A stretch of DNA of 64,000 nt from an uncultured Opitutaceae bacterium (lineage in GTDB: Bacteria > Verrucomicrobiota > Verrucomicrobiia > Opitutales > Opitutaceae): assembly GCA_903862935.1 (NCBI GenBank), contig CAIOZY010000004.1:1-64000 (forward strand). Direction: 5' to 3'. Below the pieces are notes generated by a model. The model had not been told where the DNA came from and made no database searches. It worked only from the letters and a program-made list of their open reading frames with translations. This document shows positions 51,223-58,267 of the stretch, one piece after another. Position 1 is the first letter of the stretch. Each line of letters begins with the position of its first letter. The position numbers and the translations under genes were made by a program.

Positions 51223-52074
51223 CTATCTTAGGTCAGGCCAGTGCCAGGAACCCCCAACGAGTTCCTTCATCAGAGCCCTGCATGTCGTGGCACTCTTTTC
51301 CACCGCCGCGTGCAGCTCTGAAGCCTCAAGTTTAGCTTCAATAGAAATGGCAGCCAATTCCTCAGGTGTCGCGATCCGCTCAATTCTCCTAGCCTTCGTG
51401 AACGATCTTTGGTTTCGCCGCTGTTTAAGCTCATGAAGCAGCTTCAGATTTACCTCAAATAACTCCTGATAGAGGGTGCGTTGCGCAGTTCGCAACTCTC
51501 CTCGGGACAATTTGCGCATCACCCATACGTAATCGCAGACGAAGTTTTCGGCGAGCTGTCGAGCTGCGTTATCACTTAACCGAGGATCTTGAACTTCCAA
51601 GATGGCCCTTTGATATAGCCTTCCCCATGTGTCAGCTCCTTTTAGGAAGCGCCAACCTGGGCGTATGACCTCTGCAATATCTTGAAGGCGCCTCTTAGTC
51701 CACCCGTCCCGTTTGTGAATACGAAGAGCGAGCCCCAACCTGACCCGGTAAAATAGTCGTGCTGGGATAATTACAAAGTCCGCCTCTGCACCAGAGAACA
51801 CGGCAGCAACTTTGGGCACACCACCTATAATAGCCGTACGCACTGAATAGGCCTTCAACTCACACCCGGACAACCTGCGGGTCCAAAGACTAGTAGTAAA
51901 CATCTCTGGATCGGATGAGACGATGTGAAAATCCCAATCAGAGAACGCATCGGCCGCTTCAATCACCTCAGATGGCTTACGTTCACGAGATCCTATTATG
52001 ATCAGAGCCTTAACTGTAGGCTCATTCTCAGCCCACTTTGACATCGCGAGCCCAAAGTCAATAGGTGCACTCAC
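51223..52074 (-). CDS. Nucleotidyltransferase-fold protein resembling aminoglycoside 6-adenylyltransferases (ANT(6)-like)
   Basis: 'VKALIIIGSRERK...DAFSDWDFHIVSSDPEMF' (GSR..DxD), 'EADFVIIPARLF', all-helical C-terminal half; AT-richer than flanking DNA. Confidence 0.6.
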   Translation of the reverse strand: MSAPIDFGLAMSKWAENEPTVKALIIIGSRERKPSEVIEAADAFSDWDFHIVSSDPEMFTTSLWTRRLSGCELKAYSVRTAIIGGVPKVAAVFSGAEADFVIIPARLFYRVRLGLALRIHKRDGWTKRRLQDIAEVIRPGWRFLKGADTWGRLYQRAILEVQDPRLSDNAARQLAENFVCDYVWVMRKLSRGELRTAQRTLYQELFEVNLKLLHELKQRRNQRSFTKARRIERIATPEELAAISIEAKLEASELHAAVEKSATTCRALMKELVGGSWHWPDLR

Positions 52075-52119: not shown

Positions 52120-53901
52120 CTATAAACTACGGAGAGAGATTAGAATCTCGGTACCTTCCAAACCCGGTCCTGCGTGAATCTCACCGCGATGCAAACGCAG
52201 GATCTCCTTCGCCAAAAACACCCCTAGCCGACCGTGATTCGGCACGGATTCCTTCGACGGCTCGGGAAGGATGCCTTCCAGTTCAAGATTGCGGCCCTTT
52301 ATCGAAAGCAGAGCCGTCATCTCAGATCCTTCCCCTGACGAGCGCACCTGCATTTCGAGTTCCCGGGTGCCACTGTCCGGCCGATTTTCAGCAATCGTCT
52401 CAATCAACGACCGCAACGCGAACTCTACCATATCCCGCGCGAGTGACAGTCTGACCGGGTCGGGTCCTACCTCGACACGCATATTTAACCCAACTCCCAC
52501 CGATTTCGCGAGGTCCCGGACATCCACGGCCGTAGCTCCCACCTCGTGCAACATCTGCATCAATCCGAGCTGCCGATTCAAATTTTCTAGCCGGGCAACA
52601 TCCCCGCGGGCGGTCTCGAGGAGTCCGGGCGGCATGGGCTTGTCGCTTCCCAGTTGGCGAAACGTGGCAAGCGACACCAGCGCGTTTCCGAGCTCGTGGC
52701 TCAGGGTGAGTGCAATCTCGCGGAGCAGCCCTTTCCGATCGGCCCGCTGGCGCAAGGCAGCGTCATGGACCTCGGCACTGGCCTCCTCCCAGAAAGCCCA
52801 GGTGCCGCCGGTCTCTGTGATCAGCCCAGCCGCTGCCCGGAACGGCTGCCCTTCACTCGGGGAGATCCGGCACACCTCACGATTTCGTCGGGTCCTACCA
52901 ATCATCTCACGCACCACGACCGGAACATGTCTGGGAACGCTCTCGTTGGCCCCAATAACTAGGGTGCTGGGGAGATATTTGGCTCCCAAGACTGTCTGCT
53001 CTGTGAGGGAACTCAACCGTCCCAGCTGCGTTGCCTTGGCCAGACAGTGGCGCAACAGTCGCGCGAAGAATACGGCCCGGGTCCGGTCCGCCTCATCATA
53101 GGCCTGTCCATCATCACGTACACCTAATGCAATTAGGCCGAGCAACCGCCCGTTGTCGTGGATGGGGATCAGCAGCCGCGCTCCCCACAGTGCAAGCCGG
53201 TTGCGCACGGCCAGCTCCGCAACCGGGTCCGCACGGCTTTCCCAGGTGTTGCCATCCATCACGGCCGGATGGTTCTCGAAAAACGCAACGATGGGATCGT
53301 CGACCCCAAAAAACGAGGTGCCCCGATCCGCGCGGAAGCCATCAGCCTCCCTTAGGAAAAAGACCGCATGAGAGGCATGCAGCAGATGCCGCGAGGCCCG
53401 TCGGAACTCGGTAACGAGCCTGTCGCGTGTATCGAGATTCTCAACCGCCCCCTCCAGGAAATCCCAAAGCTCGGCGGCATCCGCAGCAGACGGTTGCCGA
53501 ACGGATTGCCGCGATGGCTCTGCGTGGCGGTTTTTTTCAACCAGCAGATCGAGCATCGACTGCTTTTCTGCGAGTTCCTCCAGCAAAGGAAGAAAGTCAG
53601 CCAGCTGCCGCGTGCTTTGCTCGTAGGAAAGATAGACTCGGGCGCGTCCGGCGAGCTTGGCCTGCTCGAAGGGAAGACTGCGGGGCTCCCCAACGTAGAT
53701 TGTCGGGCACCGGGTAAGCACCGTGGGGAGCAGGCCCTCCGCCGCGGAATCCAAGATAACAGCCGCTGCCAAACCAGCTGCCGTGCTTGTCGGCAACTCC
53801 TGCCGACCCAAACGCAGGATCGTCCTTCCGGCCGGCACTTGGCCCTCCCACGATCCAGCCAGCTCTGGATCGGTCGTCGCTAGTATCAAGAGGGTTGGCA
53901 T
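52120..53901 (-). CDS. GAF-domain histidine-kinase-like protein with degenerate ATPase domain
   Basis: GAF-like 'DRLVTEFRRASRHLLHASHAVFFLR..LLIPIHDNGRLLGLIALG'; H-box 'IALTLSHELGNALVSLATFRQL'; divergent N/G boxes; C-terminal 'GRLGVFLAKEILRLHRGEIHAGPG'. Confidence 0.75.
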   Translation of the reverse strand: MPTLLILATTDPELAGSWEGQVPAGRTILRLGRQELPTSTAAGLAAAVILDSAAEGLLPTVLTRCPTIYVGEPRSLPFEQAKLAGRARVYLSYEQSTRQLADFLPLLEELAEKQSMLDLLVEKNRHAEPSRQSVRQPSAADAAELWDFLEGAVENLDTRDRLVTEFRRASRHLLHASHAVFFLREADGFRADRGTSFFGVDDPIVAFFENHPAVMDGNTWESRADPVAELAVRNRLALWGARLLIPIHDNGRLLGLIALGVRDDGQAYDEADRTRAVFFARLLRHCLAKATQLGRLSSLTEQTVLGAKYLPSTLVIGANESVPRHVPVVVREMIGRTRRNREVCRISPSEGQPFRAAAGLITETGGTWAFWEEASAEVHDAALRQRADRKGLLREIALTLSHELGNALVSLATFRQLGSDKPMPPGLLETARGDVARLENLNRQLGLMQMLHEVGATAVDVRDLAKSVGVGLNMRVEVGPDPVRLSLARDMVEFALRSLIETIAENRPDSGTRELEMQVRSSGEGSEMTALLSIKGRNLELEGILPEPSKESVPNHGRLGVFLAKEILRLHRGEIHAGPGLEGTEILISLRSL

Positions 53902-55877
53902 GGGATAGTCACACGGAACGTCGCTCCGCCTCCATTAGTCGGTGGATCAACGGCGATTGAAGCATTCAGGCCAACCAAGATATCACGGCAGATTGCCAAT
54001 CCAAGTCCGAATCCCGTGGACTTTGTGGACTGGAAGGGTTGGAAGAGCCGAGTTTGCATTTCCGGGGCGATACCCGGACCGCTGTCGCTCACGGCTATCT
54101 CGATGTGGTCCTGAACCCGGCGGGTGGTGACCTTAATCCAATCGTTTCCGTCCCTGTTTTCAAGAGCCTGTATGGCGTTGAAACACAGATTGAGCAGCAC
54201 CTGTTTTACCGCCGAGGCATCGATGTAAGCCTTGTCCGGCACGGCCTGGAGATCCGTGAGAATCTGGACATGCCTGATCGCGGCCTTCGGGGCGACAAGA
54301 TCGAGGCTCGCCCTGAGCACCGGGTGCAACTCGATCACTTCCGAAACGTAGGCCCGAGGCGAAGCCAGCTCGAGGAGCTGCTCAGTGAGCCTGTCGATGC
54401 GTGCGACTTCGTCTGTCATCAAACGGAAAAACTTGTCTCGGAATGCCGCATCCTGGTACCGGCTCGGAAGCAGCTGCACGAATGTCTTGATCGAAACCAA
54501 TGGATTCCGGATCTCGTGGGCCAAGCTCGCGCCCAAGAGTCCCACTGTCGCCAATTGTTCAGCATGCTGCATCTTTGCTGTCAGGTAAGCTCGCTCGAAC
54601 GCACCCTCAAAAATCGAAATTAGCTCCATCAACTGCATCACCTGAGGATAGGTATAGGGCCTGTAGGTTGCCGGGACGCCGACACTCACGACTACGCCCA
54701 ACGTCGGGTTCTGTCCTACCGCCATGACACCCAGTCTATTGTCCGATAAAATCTTAGCCAATATCTGTCGTTCCGCGGAGGTCTTCTCCCGGGCCAGCCG
54801 CTCCGGGGAGATCCAGCGGAGTTGCCGCAGGGTGCGCATCGCAGCAGAGTCATCTGTTAGCTCGGCGCCCAAAGCCCTTACTGGGCCGCCATTCCCTACG
54901 AGGACCAACGCATTGTCAGTCTGCCCCCAGCCCTGCAGAATCTTTACGAAACCCTTCTCAAGGTTCTCGACCCGTGACTCCCGTCCAGCCACAGCAAACG
55001 CCTCCTGACGGGCCTTTGTGGCTTGCGGGAAAAACTTGAACCAGCGATCGAGCCAACTCTGCATGGTGACTGCCGTCAGAAGCGCAGCGATCGTAGTAGG
55101 AACAAAAGCCAGCCCCGTCGGAAGCATCTGTTGGGATCCAATGAAGACCAGATAGGCAACACCCGTCGCTCCCGCAATCAATGCAGCCTTGTTCACCGCG
55201 ATCAGAAGAATCTGGGCAGAATCGAAAAGCCGATGGGTCGTGACCGCATAAGCAGCGCTGGCATAGAATCCGAGGACCAAGAGTGGCTGCAGTTGGATGT
55301 AGACCTGGTCGTTCGTCGCAGTGTTGAGTATCATCGTCGCCAAAATGGCGACTACCACGGCGCACCCGCCGATCAACCACACTTGGAGTTCCATTCGGCG
55401 CCCTTCCGTAAGCGCTTTCGCATCGATAGAGGTTCGCAGAAGTATAAACCCGTTAAGCGCAAAGTAGCCGGTTATGTATGCATAGTAACCCCAGCCCCGT
55501 ACTCTCTGCAGTTCGGTAGAGTGAGAAGGTACAAAATAATCCGTGAAACATATCCACATCAATGCAGCCGAAACCACTATCCATACGAGCGACCTGAAGA
55601 GAGTGTTCCAATTCCAGAGCTTCTGACTCGATGCTATAATCTCCTTAGCAATCCAATAGTGAAACGGCAGCCAAGCTCCGACCGCGCACGATAGTCTAAA
55701 CCAGAACAGACCGCCATGGAGGAACGCCGCTACGTGCAGACACGCCAACCAGGCGGCCCAGTGCAGCGAACACGTGCAGACAACGCGGTTTACCGCTCGT
55801 CTGGGATTTGACCAAAGAATGATCCCTCCGGCAACGACGCCGATCAGAGCAGCCAACAGTGCTGTGGACCTCAGCAT
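53886..55877 (-). CDS. Membrane sensor histidine kinase
   Basis: Multiple N-terminal TM helices, GAF-like linker, H-box 'LGASLAHEIRNPLVSIKTFVQLLP', N-box 'VLLNLCFNAIQAL', 'VSDSGPGI', 'TGFGLGLAICRDIL'. Confidence 0.9.
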   Translation of the reverse strand: MLRSTALLAALIGVVAGGIILWSNPRRAVNRVVCTCSLHWAAWLACLHVAAFLHGGLFWFRLSCAVGAWLPFHYWIAKEIIASSQKLWNWNTLFRSLVWIVVSAALMWICFTDYFVPSHSTELQRVRGWGYYAYITGYFALNGFILLRTSIDAKALTEGRRMELQVWLIGGCAVVVAILATMILNTATNDQVYIQLQPLLVLGFYASAAYAVTTHRLFDSAQILLIAVNKAALIAGATGVAYLVFIGSQQMLPTGLAFVPTTIAALLTAVTMQSWLDRWFKFFPQATKARQEAFAVAGRESRVENLEKGFVKILQGWGQTDNALVLVGNGGPVRALGAELTDDSAAMRTLRQLRWISPERLAREKTSAERQILAKILSDNRLGVMAVGQNPTLGVVVSVGVPATYRPYTYPQVMQLMELISIFEGAFERAYLTAKMQHAEQLATVGLLGASLAHEIRNPLVSIKTFVQLLPSRYQDAAFRDKFFRLMTDEVARIDRLTEQLLELASPRAYVSEVIELHPVLRASLDLVAPKAAIRHVQILTDLQAVPDKAYIDASAVKQVLLNLCFNAIQALENRDGNDWIKVTTRRVQDHIEIAVSDSGPGIAPEMQTRLFQPFQSTKSTGFGLGLAICRDILVGLNASIAVDPPTNGGGATFRVTIPCQPS

Positions 55878-57079
55878 TTCTCGAGAATCAGACTGGAATT
55901 AACCCCCGCCAAACCGTGGGCATTGATCAGGGTAAGAGAATGCTCAAGGGCCCTGCTGCTTGCGCTCAGATTGAGGGGGCACGCGGGGTCCGGATAGAGC
56001 CAGTTGACCGTCGGGGGAATGATCCCGTGGCGCTGTGCCAGGGCCGCAGCGGCGACCTGGATAGCCGGGGCGCCCCCGAGGGGATTGCCGATCGAGCCTT
56101 TGATCGACACCGCCGGAATATCCGGCAGCGCCGACTGGAAGACCGCGATGAGAGCGCTCGCCTCCGCGGCGTCGATCGCCCTGTGGCCAGGACCCCAGGC
56201 ATTGATCGAGTCTACCTCGTAGGGGCGGATGCCGGCCTCAGCCAAGGCGAGCCGGTTCGCCGGGATCAGGCCGCTGCACAGCTTGTCCGGCTCGTCGTTG
56301 CCGAACGCATACCCCGATATGAAGCTGTAGCCTTTCCTCGGGCTGGATTCCGGCTCGAGGACGATCATACAGGCGCCCTCACTCACGACGCCGGTCGTCC
56401 GCCAGAGGTCAAACGGGCGGTCCAAGCGCTCCGGCATCGCATCCGTCTCCGGCGTAAGCCCGGCGGCTCGGATCTCCAGGAGCGGAAATCTGTGGAGAGG
56501 GGCCTCGGTCCCGCCGCACAACGCAATCTCGGCCTCGCCTTCGGCCACCATGCGCGCAGCGTACCCGATCGCGTCGAGCCCGGAGCAGCAGGAACTCTGC
56601 ATGACCATCGTGCGGGCCGCCGTGCCGAGCACCCGGTTGATGGCTCCGGGAATCCCCGCCGTGCTGATGCTGTAGATCGTCCGCGGCAGAGTGCCATGTG
56701 CCCCGTGCTTGCTGACCGACTCGATCGAGTGGTTGATCGACCCGAAGTCCATCAGAGCCGTGCCCACAAAGATCGAGGCATGCACCCTTCGGAACTCCTC
56801 AAGTGATACCCCGGCATCCTGGATCGCGAGCATCGCGCCGGCGACAGCAAACTGGGTGTGGCGCGCCGCGCCCTTGGGAAGCAGACTCGGGTCCACGTAG
56901 CTGCCCACCCTGAACGTATCCATGTGAGCCGCCACCAACGGCCCATACTGGTCGCCCAGTTTGCCGTAGGGCCTGACCCGGCTGACGGGCTCGAGGATCC
57001 CCTTCCAAAAATCATCCCGGCCGATCCCCGCGGGGGTCACCGGACCGATTCCCGTAATCTTAACTCGCCTTCGTTTCAT
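55871..57079 (-). CDS. Atypical beta-ketoacyl-ACP synthase family protein
   Basis: KAS fold motifs: 'RVKITGIGPVTPAGIGRDDFWKGI', nucleophile region 'VMQSSCCSGLDAIGYAARMVAEGEAEIALCGGTEA'; His positions altered (NAWGPGH; SIKGSIGNPLGG). Confidence 0.87.
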   Translation of the reverse strand: MKRRRVKITGIGPVTPAGIGRDDFWKGILEPVSRVRPYGKLGDQYGPLVAAHMDTFRVGSYVDPSLLPKGAARHTQFAVAGAMLAIQDAGVSLEEFRRVHASIFVGTALMDFGSINHSIESVSKHGAHGTLPRTIYSISTAGIPGAINRVLGTAARTMVMQSSCCSGLDAIGYAARMVAEGEAEIALCGGTEAPLHRFPLLEIRAAGLTPETDAMPERLDRPFDLWRTTGVVSEGACMIVLEPESSPRKGYSFISGYAFGNDEPDKLCSGLIPANRLALAEAGIRPYEVDSINAWGPGHRAIDAAEASALIAVFQSALPDIPAVSIKGSIGNPLGGAPAIQVAAAALAQRHGIIPPTVNWLYPDPACPLNLSASSRALEHSLTLINAHGLAGVNSSLILEKC

Positions 57080-57121
57080 GCCGTGCCGGGGTTCTTGGGG
57101 TCTAGCGCCGGTAGCGGGATA

Positions 57122-58267
57122 TCAGCTCTTCGGCGCTGCCGGGAATGACATCCGCACGATCGTGCCCTTCGCGGGCTGGGACTGGATATCAAAGGTTCCC
57201 CCGTGCGCCGCTACTAGATGTCCGCAGATGCCCAGTCCGAGCCCCGTGCCGCTTTCCTTGTTCGAAAAACCGCCCTTCAGGGCCAGCCGCAGCCGCTCCG
57301 GATCCATGCCCGTGCCGTCGTCCGAGATCACAACCTCGACGCCTTTGGCCGTTGTCACAAACGCGATCTCGACGCTCTTCGCCCCGGCCTCCAGTGAGTT
57401 TTTGAGGAGGTTCTGGAACACCCGCATCAGCTCGAACTTGGACCCCAGGATCACGGCCTCCGGGGCTCCTCTCACTGCGATCGAGGCGTTGCCGAAGAAG
57501 ATCACCTGCTTGACGTCCCGGGCCACCTGGACGAGGTCAAGCTGGACCATCTCCGAGAGCTTCTTCGAGGCCTGGCGCCAGTTCTCCGAGAGATGATGGC
57601 AATATTCGGCGGCCTTCTCGACCATGGTCGCGTACTCGAGAAGCTTCTGCGCCATCTCGGGGTTGTGCTCGGAAAGGGCCTTCGCCTCCTCAGAGACCAG
57701 GCTCGAGTAGCCAATCACCACGGTGAGGGGATTGTTGAGGTCGTGGACCAGCTCGACCGAGGCCCGGCCCTGCCAGACCTGAGGCTTGGTCTGCTCGATC
57801 TCGCGTTTGAGGGCCGAGTTGAGCTCCACGGCGGCGGCTGCAAGCCTCGCGTTGTGGCGCCTCAGGCCTGTCGCCTTCGCCTGGGTGCGGACGGCACCCA
57901 GCAGTTCCTCAATGTCCGGGGGTTTCCTCAGATATTGGTTAGCCCCTCCAACCATCGCCAGCTGGGCCGTGAGCAGCGTTCCGTACCCCGTGAGCATGAT
58001 CACCCCAACCAAGGGGTCTATCTTGCGGATCTCCTCGAGCGCCCGGATCCCATCCATCTCCGGCATTCGGATGTCGAGAATCACACAGGAAAACGGCCTC
58101 TCCTTGATCTTGGCAAGGGCCTCCATGGCGCGATCCGCCGTGTCGACCGCAAACTCCGTCGAAAGCGCGAAGGCGACCGACTCGCGTGGGCCGTATTCAT
58201 CGTCGACGACCAACACCACAGCCCGGTCGGCCTCAGCCGCCTTTGGGGGCTCTTCCTGTCCTAACAT
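57122..58267 (-). CDS. Response-regulator receiver / histidine kinase fusion
   Basis: REC 'VVLVVDDEYGPRESVAFALS..CVILDIRMPEMDGIRALEEI..VIMLTGYG..YLRKPPDIEELL'; HK 'LVHDLNNPLTVVIGYSSLV', 'VFQNLLKNSLEAGA', 'ISDDGTGM', 'SGTGLGLGICGHLVAAHGG'. Confidence 0.92.
   Translation of the reverse strand: MLGQEEPPKAAEADRAVVLVVDDEYGPRESVAFALSTEFAVDTADRAMEALAKIKERPFSCVILDIRMPEMDGIRALEEIRKIDPLVGVIMLTGYGTLLTAQLAMVGGANQYLRKPPDIEELLGAVRTQAKATGLRRHNARLAAAAVELNSALKREIEQTKPQVWQGRASVELVHDLNNPLTVVIGYSSLVSEEAKALSEHNPEMAQKLLEYATMVEKAAEYCHHLSENWRQASKKLSEMVQLDLVQVARDVKQVIFFGNASIAVRGAPEAVILGSKFELMRVFQNLLKNSLEAGAKSVEIAFVTTAKGVEVVISDDGTGMDPERLRLALKGGFSNKESGTGLGLGICGHLVAAHGGTFDIQSQPAKGTIVRMSFPAAPKS

Follow-up and report, generated by a model that had tools for sequence, protein, structure and literature searches.

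Organisation of the operon

Why should a gene for a beta-ketoacyl synthase lie among genes for histidine kinases? The question is raised by an operon in a 64,000-nt stretch of DNA (referred to below as the window) from the 3.35-Mb draft genome of an uncultured Opitutaceae bacterium. A preliminary description of the window had reported four open reading frames on the minus strand, their order and two overlaps between them, and all of this proved exact to the base. The first gene (57122..58267) encodes REC-HK, a protein of 381 aa in which an N-terminal receiver is followed by HisKA and HATPase domains (Pfam PF00072, PF00512 and PF02518). Next comes the gene for a ketosynthase-like protein, here called KS (55871..57079; 402 aa), which has the FabF fold and both the N- and the C-terminal ketoacyl synthase domains (PF00109/PF02801). 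The third gene (53886..55877) specifies a membrane histidine kinase (membrane HK) of 663 aa with complete HisKA and HATPase motifs (PF00512, PF02518). The fourth (52120..53901) encodes a GAF-HK-like protein (GAF-HK) of 593 aa, composed of a receiver-like N-terminus, a GAF domain, HisKA-type helices carrying H402 and a degenerate ATPase domain. The genes for KS and membrane HK share 7 nt (55871-55877) and those for membrane HK and GAF-HK share 16 nt (53886-53901). A fifth gene on the same strand (51223..52074), absent from the preliminary description, begins 45 nt past the GAF-HK gene. It encodes a nucleotidyltransferase-like protein of 283 aa with a weak match to Pfam PF04439, and locus maps show that it travels with the operon.

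The genes on either side are ordinary: rmuC and genes for MOSC, RF-1-domain, MoxR and DUF58 proteins on one flank, and genes for an ABC ATPase, SurE, PNPase and S15 on the other. Scans of the window for sigma-54 and sigma-70 promoters gave nothing that exceeded chance. The membrane HK gene has a G+C content of 0.559, compared with 0.65 for the KS gene and 0.683 for rmuC, a difference that may reflect exchange of part of the operon with a relative.

Conservation in the Opitutaceae

The KS clade is present in 83 of 252 Opitutaceae genomes, GAF-HK in 95 and both proteins in 78 (Fisher's exact test, p ~1e-41, uncorrected for relatedness). Most of the discordant genomes were inspected, and they mainly reflect contig ends or decayed copies. 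In 12 of the genomes with GAF-HK but no KS, and in three of those with KS but no GAF-HK, the cluster either reached a contig edge or had a fragment of KS at that edge. Decayed copies of the cluster were seen in five genomes (G007, G083, G090, G058 and G062). In G062 the KS gene is interrupted by a stop, the membrane HK gene is eroded and GAF-HK is lost; the operon genes of this genome and of G068 decay jointly.

Gene order is identical in most of the 76 named loci, and the genes remain linked where the flanks or the inner order have changed (L112, L113, L124 and L129-L131). Among homologous Opitutaceae loci the junction between KS and membrane HK is overlapping in 54 of 67 and that between membrane HK and GAF-HK in 63 of 65. 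The dN/dS ratio of KS in close pairs ranges from 0.05 to 0.20. The operon genes have been conserved as a unit and are under purifying selection. The preliminary description had named two findings that would speak against a dedicated system, namely that the four genes are neighbours in this genome only, or that the synthase belongs to a known pathway and merely adjoins unrelated kinases. Neither applies, as KS and the kinases form a single conserved unit in dozens of genomes and, as described below, are linked in all 20 of the distant loci examined.

Two genomes only, G016 and G129, have REC-HK, membrane HK and GAF-HK and no KS; the nucleotidyltransferase gene was not found in their clusters either. 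The two are sisters and, with midpoint rooting (the root was not independently fixed), are nested among KS-bearing lineages, which fits a single joint loss of KS and the nucleotidyltransferase. It also means that KS is dispensable for the relay in some lineages.

The match of the nucleotidyltransferase-like protein to PF04439 is stronger in a homologue (9e-10), and the homologue alone reaches the family score. Residues G28 and S29, D46-x-D48 and D99 are conserved in 67-68 of 68 homologues, which corresponds to the GS...DxD pattern with a third Asp of ANT/LinB-like enzymes. The protein is much more variable than those encoded next to it in the operon: in 25 pairs of genomes whose KS are more than 75% identical, the nucleotidyltransferases are less than 50% identical in 15. 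Together with its low G+C content in the window (0.51 vs 0.65 for KS), this suggests frequent replacement or diversification of the gene.

A wider module in the Verrucomicrobiota

A search across the phylum revealed, in other Verrucomicrobiota, relatives of KS whose scores exceed the FabF background; the Opitutaceae GAF-HK profile gave no match outside the family at its threshold. We took 20 of the high-scoring distant KS loci, selected on KS score and not on context. In all 20 the order KS, membrane HK, second HK is kept, and KS has a kinase no more than 1.5 kb away, compared with one of 16 loci of canonical FabF-like genes. The large kinase after KS is about 830 aa long and the second kinase about 665 aa in 19 loci and 509 aa in the remaining one (L188). 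According to a simple gene caller whose output was read by eye, with families assigned by Pfam on examples, REC-HK is present in 15 of the 20 loci, a FadL-type transporter for hydrophobic compounds in 14 and an FAD-linked oxidase in eight; the nucleotidyltransferase was not recognised in any of the 20. In 10 of these loci a sigma-54 response regulator adjoins the second kinase. The preliminary description had noted that no output regulator accompanies the kinases. This holds for the window, where Pfam and the ORF context gave no DNA-binding regulator, ACP, ketoreductase or acyltransferase adjoining the operon, but it does not hold for half of the distant loci.

The kinases of the two versions are related along their entire length. 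Profiles of the window-type and distant membrane kinases match at full length (E 6e-98), and one of the distant kinases has a 7TM region (PF16927). GAF-HK and its distant counterpart, the second kinase, align end to end, and the alignment takes in the receiver-like N-terminus (E 1e-33); the match of GAF-HK to the distant large kinases is weaker and does not extend over the full length. In a phylogenetic tree of KS the Opitutaceae clade is fully supported, and its grouping with the distant proteins is weak (0.31). The main grounds for regarding the window operon as descended by reduction from an older module are therefore its gene order and the orthology of its kinases, with the KS tree contributing less. 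Neither FadL nor the FAD oxidase was found anywhere in the window genome, and the oxidase persists next to KS in a few Opitutaceae loci. Overall the window operon looks like a reduced form of a module of the wider Verrucomicrobiota, and its reading as a conserved module is strongly supported.

The ketosynthase-like protein

The fold of KS is confidently FabF-like: the structural model has a pLDDT of 94.6 and a TM score of 0.94 to FabF of Bacillus subtilis. Identity to FabF is about 30% and the alignment has no gaps around the active site. FabF residues are given below in what we take to be the E. coli numbering, to which we mapped the positions of KS. Among 75 Opitutaceae homologues the active-site Cys (Cys164, codon 56588..56590, assigned by alignment to FabF and the homologues) is kept in 74 and Lys327 in 73 of 73. 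The first catalytic His of FabF, His303, is replaced by Trp295 in 73 of 74, and the second by Asn, Thr, Ser or Ala (residue 332). Two other residues have become nearly invariant in these homologues: His299 at the position of FabF Thr307 (in 74) and His388 at that of Phe398 (in 73). Trp295 and His299 delimit the motif WGPGH (codons 295-299, 56183..56197). In FabF the carbonyl of the substrate is coordinated by two residues, His303 and His340, and Phe400 serves as the gate of the active site (PMC7138838). KS scores 195.5 bits with the FabF model TIGR03150, below the family cut-off of 493.75 bits, and the window genome has three other ketosynthases which are 29-32% identical to it. It thus resembles FabF (KAS II) in its thiolase-type ketosynthase fold, Cys and Lys, but differs in that both catalytic His and the gating Phe are replaced, in its score far under the cut-off and in its setting among kinases.

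Since both catalytic His are replaced, established ketosynthase chemistry makes condensation by KS unlikely in the window clade. The preliminary description had considered that the synthase might make an acyl-thioester signal or sense one. The loss of both His, in spite of the retained Cys164, argues against the making of a signal by this clade; acyl-thioester sensing is plausible, and acylation of the Cys would be possible. His299 and His388 could form another catalytic site.

A comparable case is that of the KS0 domains of trans-AT polyketide synthases, which keep the Cys, have lost the catalytic His and are expected to transfer acyl groups without condensing them. The window KS shares this combination of residues but is a stand-alone, single-domain protein beside kinases and not a domain of a polyketide synthase. 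The nearest precedent in signalling is the PpyS-PluR photopyrone system, in which PpyS has a Cys-His-Asn triad and the receptor is of the LuxR type (PMC4578411). Here too a stand-alone ketosynthase is tied to signalling; in the window clade, however, Trp stands at the position of the His, and KS is partnered by histidine kinases.

The first catalytic His is kept in 17 of the 20 distant relatives, and Asn stands in place of the second in 18. The distant proteins are thus mostly catalytic-looking and those of the Opitutaceae lack the His, so that the two versions can be compared directly. The three distant KS without the first His (L172, L178 and L189) belong to clusters that are still together. 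That the His has been lost repeatedly while the rest of the cluster is kept speaks for a role of KS in binding or transacylation. Two of the three, L172 and L178, come from one other family of the class (genomes G282 and G419). They have Tyr at the position of the first catalytic His and Arg at that of His388, and neither FadL nor FAD oxidase was seen nearby. Judged by these residues, the catalytic His was lost here a second time, independently.

The kinase-type proteins

The preliminary description spoke of three histidine kinases, and for two of them this is borne out. At least 93% of 66 homologues of REC-HK retain the receiver residues D22, D23, D65, T93 and K115, the phospho-acceptor H175, and the N and G boxes. 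In membrane HK H454 and the N and G boxes are invariant in 69 homologues. Both proteins therefore have the phospho-acceptor His, N box and G boxes that characterise sensor kinases.

For GAF-HK the designation has to be modified. Pfam gave only sub-threshold matches to GAF and HisKA and none to HATPase, although the structural model (pLDDT 83) matches kinase cores. The motif HExxN is strongly conserved (H402 and E403 in 68 of 68 homologues, N406 in 66), and the N box and the G1 box (DxGxG) are absent across all 68. The distant orthologue of GAF-HK is an intact kinase. A protein that has lost the ATP-binding motifs and kept the phospho-acceptor His is probably a phosphotransferase, and we regard GAF-HK as a predicted histidine phosphotransferase. 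Degenerate kinases that act in this way include PhyT, ChpT and Spo0B (PMC5898713). GAF-HK resembles them in combining the acceptor His with a degenerate ATPase domain, but it has a receiver-like N-terminus and a GAF domain in addition. In the search for a cognate response regulator none could be singled out, as sigma-54 regulators were too many to choose among.

The core of membrane HK also matches PrsK of the XrtA/PEP-CTERM system (TIGR02916, 81 bits), a likeness to which the distant loci add a sigma-54 regulator, the class to which PrsR belongs. The score is far under the PrsK cut-off of 300 bits, and to our knowledge PrsK-PrsR includes no ketosynthase, FadL or FAD oxidase.

Possible function of the operon

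The explanation that we favour, although we put it a little short of an even chance, is that the operon is a reduced Opitutaceae version of a Verrucomicrobiota module answering an acyl or lipid-like compound, with GAF-HK as a degenerate phosphotransferase and KS as a non-condensing protein. We infer which way the relay runs, what its ligand is and what part KS plays in signalling. Membrane HK would sense a hydrophobic ligand or the state of the membrane and phosphorylate the receiver of REC-HK. From there the phosphoryl group would pass to the His of GAF-HK, acting as a dimeric histidine phosphotransferase in the manner of ChpT, Spo0B and PhyT, which would hand it on to a response regulator encoded elsewhere. 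KS might carry acyl groups on Cys164 by transacylation or bind them non-covalently, and so report the status of acyl-ACP or acyl-CoA, or present a ligand, to the kinases; the nucleotidyltransferase might act with KS in a further step. Because FadL is missing from the window genome, any link to imported lipids would be indirect there.

Several other explanations have to be considered. That KS is an ordinary FabF of fatty-acid synthesis which came to lie next to kinases by chance is scarcely credible: the fold and the Pfam domains are those of FabF, but the score is less than half of the cut-off, both catalytic His are lost and the genome has three further ketosynthases. Equally, the linkage might merely reflect slow change of gene order within the family, since synteny often extends to the flanking rmuC, MOSC, ABC and surE genes. 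The results contradict this and make it extremely improbable, as the unit stays intact where the flanks or its inner order differ, most of its junctions overlap, and the linkage recurs in other classes (20/20 loci against 1/16 for canonical FabF-like genes).

The main rival is that KS produces or tailors a diffusible autoinducer of acyl origin for which membrane HK is the receptor, as in PpyS-PluR. Most distant KS have Cys, the first His and Asn, a set like the triad of PpyS, and they adjoin the FAD-linked oxidase and the FadL-type transporter; moreover, the window clade has the invariant residues His299 and His388. Against this, the first His is Trp in almost all Opitutaceae and has been lost in L172, L178 and L189 as well with the cluster kept, and neither FadL nor the FAD oxidase was found in the window genome. 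A signal made by KS fits the distant, His-bearing versions better than that of the window, and on balance we consider this explanation unlikely. Sensor KS and signal-making KS may, however, both be true in different lineages. A further alternative reverses the roles: the kinases would regulate KS and the nucleotidyltransferase, which would be effectors of the relay and not sensors. The joint absence of these two proteins from G016 and G129, where the kinases are kept, would agree with this, as would the conserved active-site residues of the nucleotidyltransferase and an operon that has no DNA-binding regulator. Yet in the distant loci a sigma-54 regulator is the evident output and no nucleotidyltransferase was recognised, and KS is without its catalytic His; we think an enzymatic output quite improbable.

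To return to the sensory module, it is a tentative suggestion, which we hold with slightly more reserve than the function proposed for the operon, that a condensing enzyme of fatty-acid synthesis has become an acyl sensor dedicated to a bacterial phosphorelay. The full set (FadL, REC-HK, FAD-linked oxidase, KS, membrane HK, second HK and sigma-54 regulator) would then be an undescribed lipid-sensing system of which the Opitutaceae form is stripped down. The arrangement had appeared unfamiliar in the preliminary description, and we found no published account of it in the open-access literature; the texts searched contained no relevant work on Opitutaceae that pairs a ketoacyl synthase with histidine kinases, nor any on Verrucomicrobia that pairs one with FadL and sigma-54. 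If the suggestion is true, an enzyme has been recruited into signalling from a family otherwise known as enzymes, and the module would offer an entry point to lipid and acyl sensing in a poorly studied phylum.

Further occurrences

Where a group is given, the records of the 76 named loci belong to Opitutaceae, Opitutae or Verrucomicrobiota, with the exception of L140 (CALDHQ010000222.1). This short contig, binned as Polymorphobacter, carries REC-HK and KS of the operon; it probably comes from a member of the Opitutaceae and was mis-binned. Across 249 genomes from the phylum of G618, whose record is titled Polymorphobacter, the KS family gave a continuous range of FabF-like scores with no separate group, and a search of plasmids returned FabF matches (about 39%). 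A known anti-phage defence system was considered and rejected: PADLOC gave just weak matches of REC-HK to generic domains (best E 1.6e-4). The KS-less cluster of three kinase genes in G129 (L142, G129:C27, 1-7284) adjoins cbb3-type cytochrome oxidase-like and assembly-factor-like genes, as read by eye from ORF starts. In G018 the operon is followed by a gene for an extra protein with receiver-like, GAF, HisKA and HATPase regions (L054, 14450-16444).
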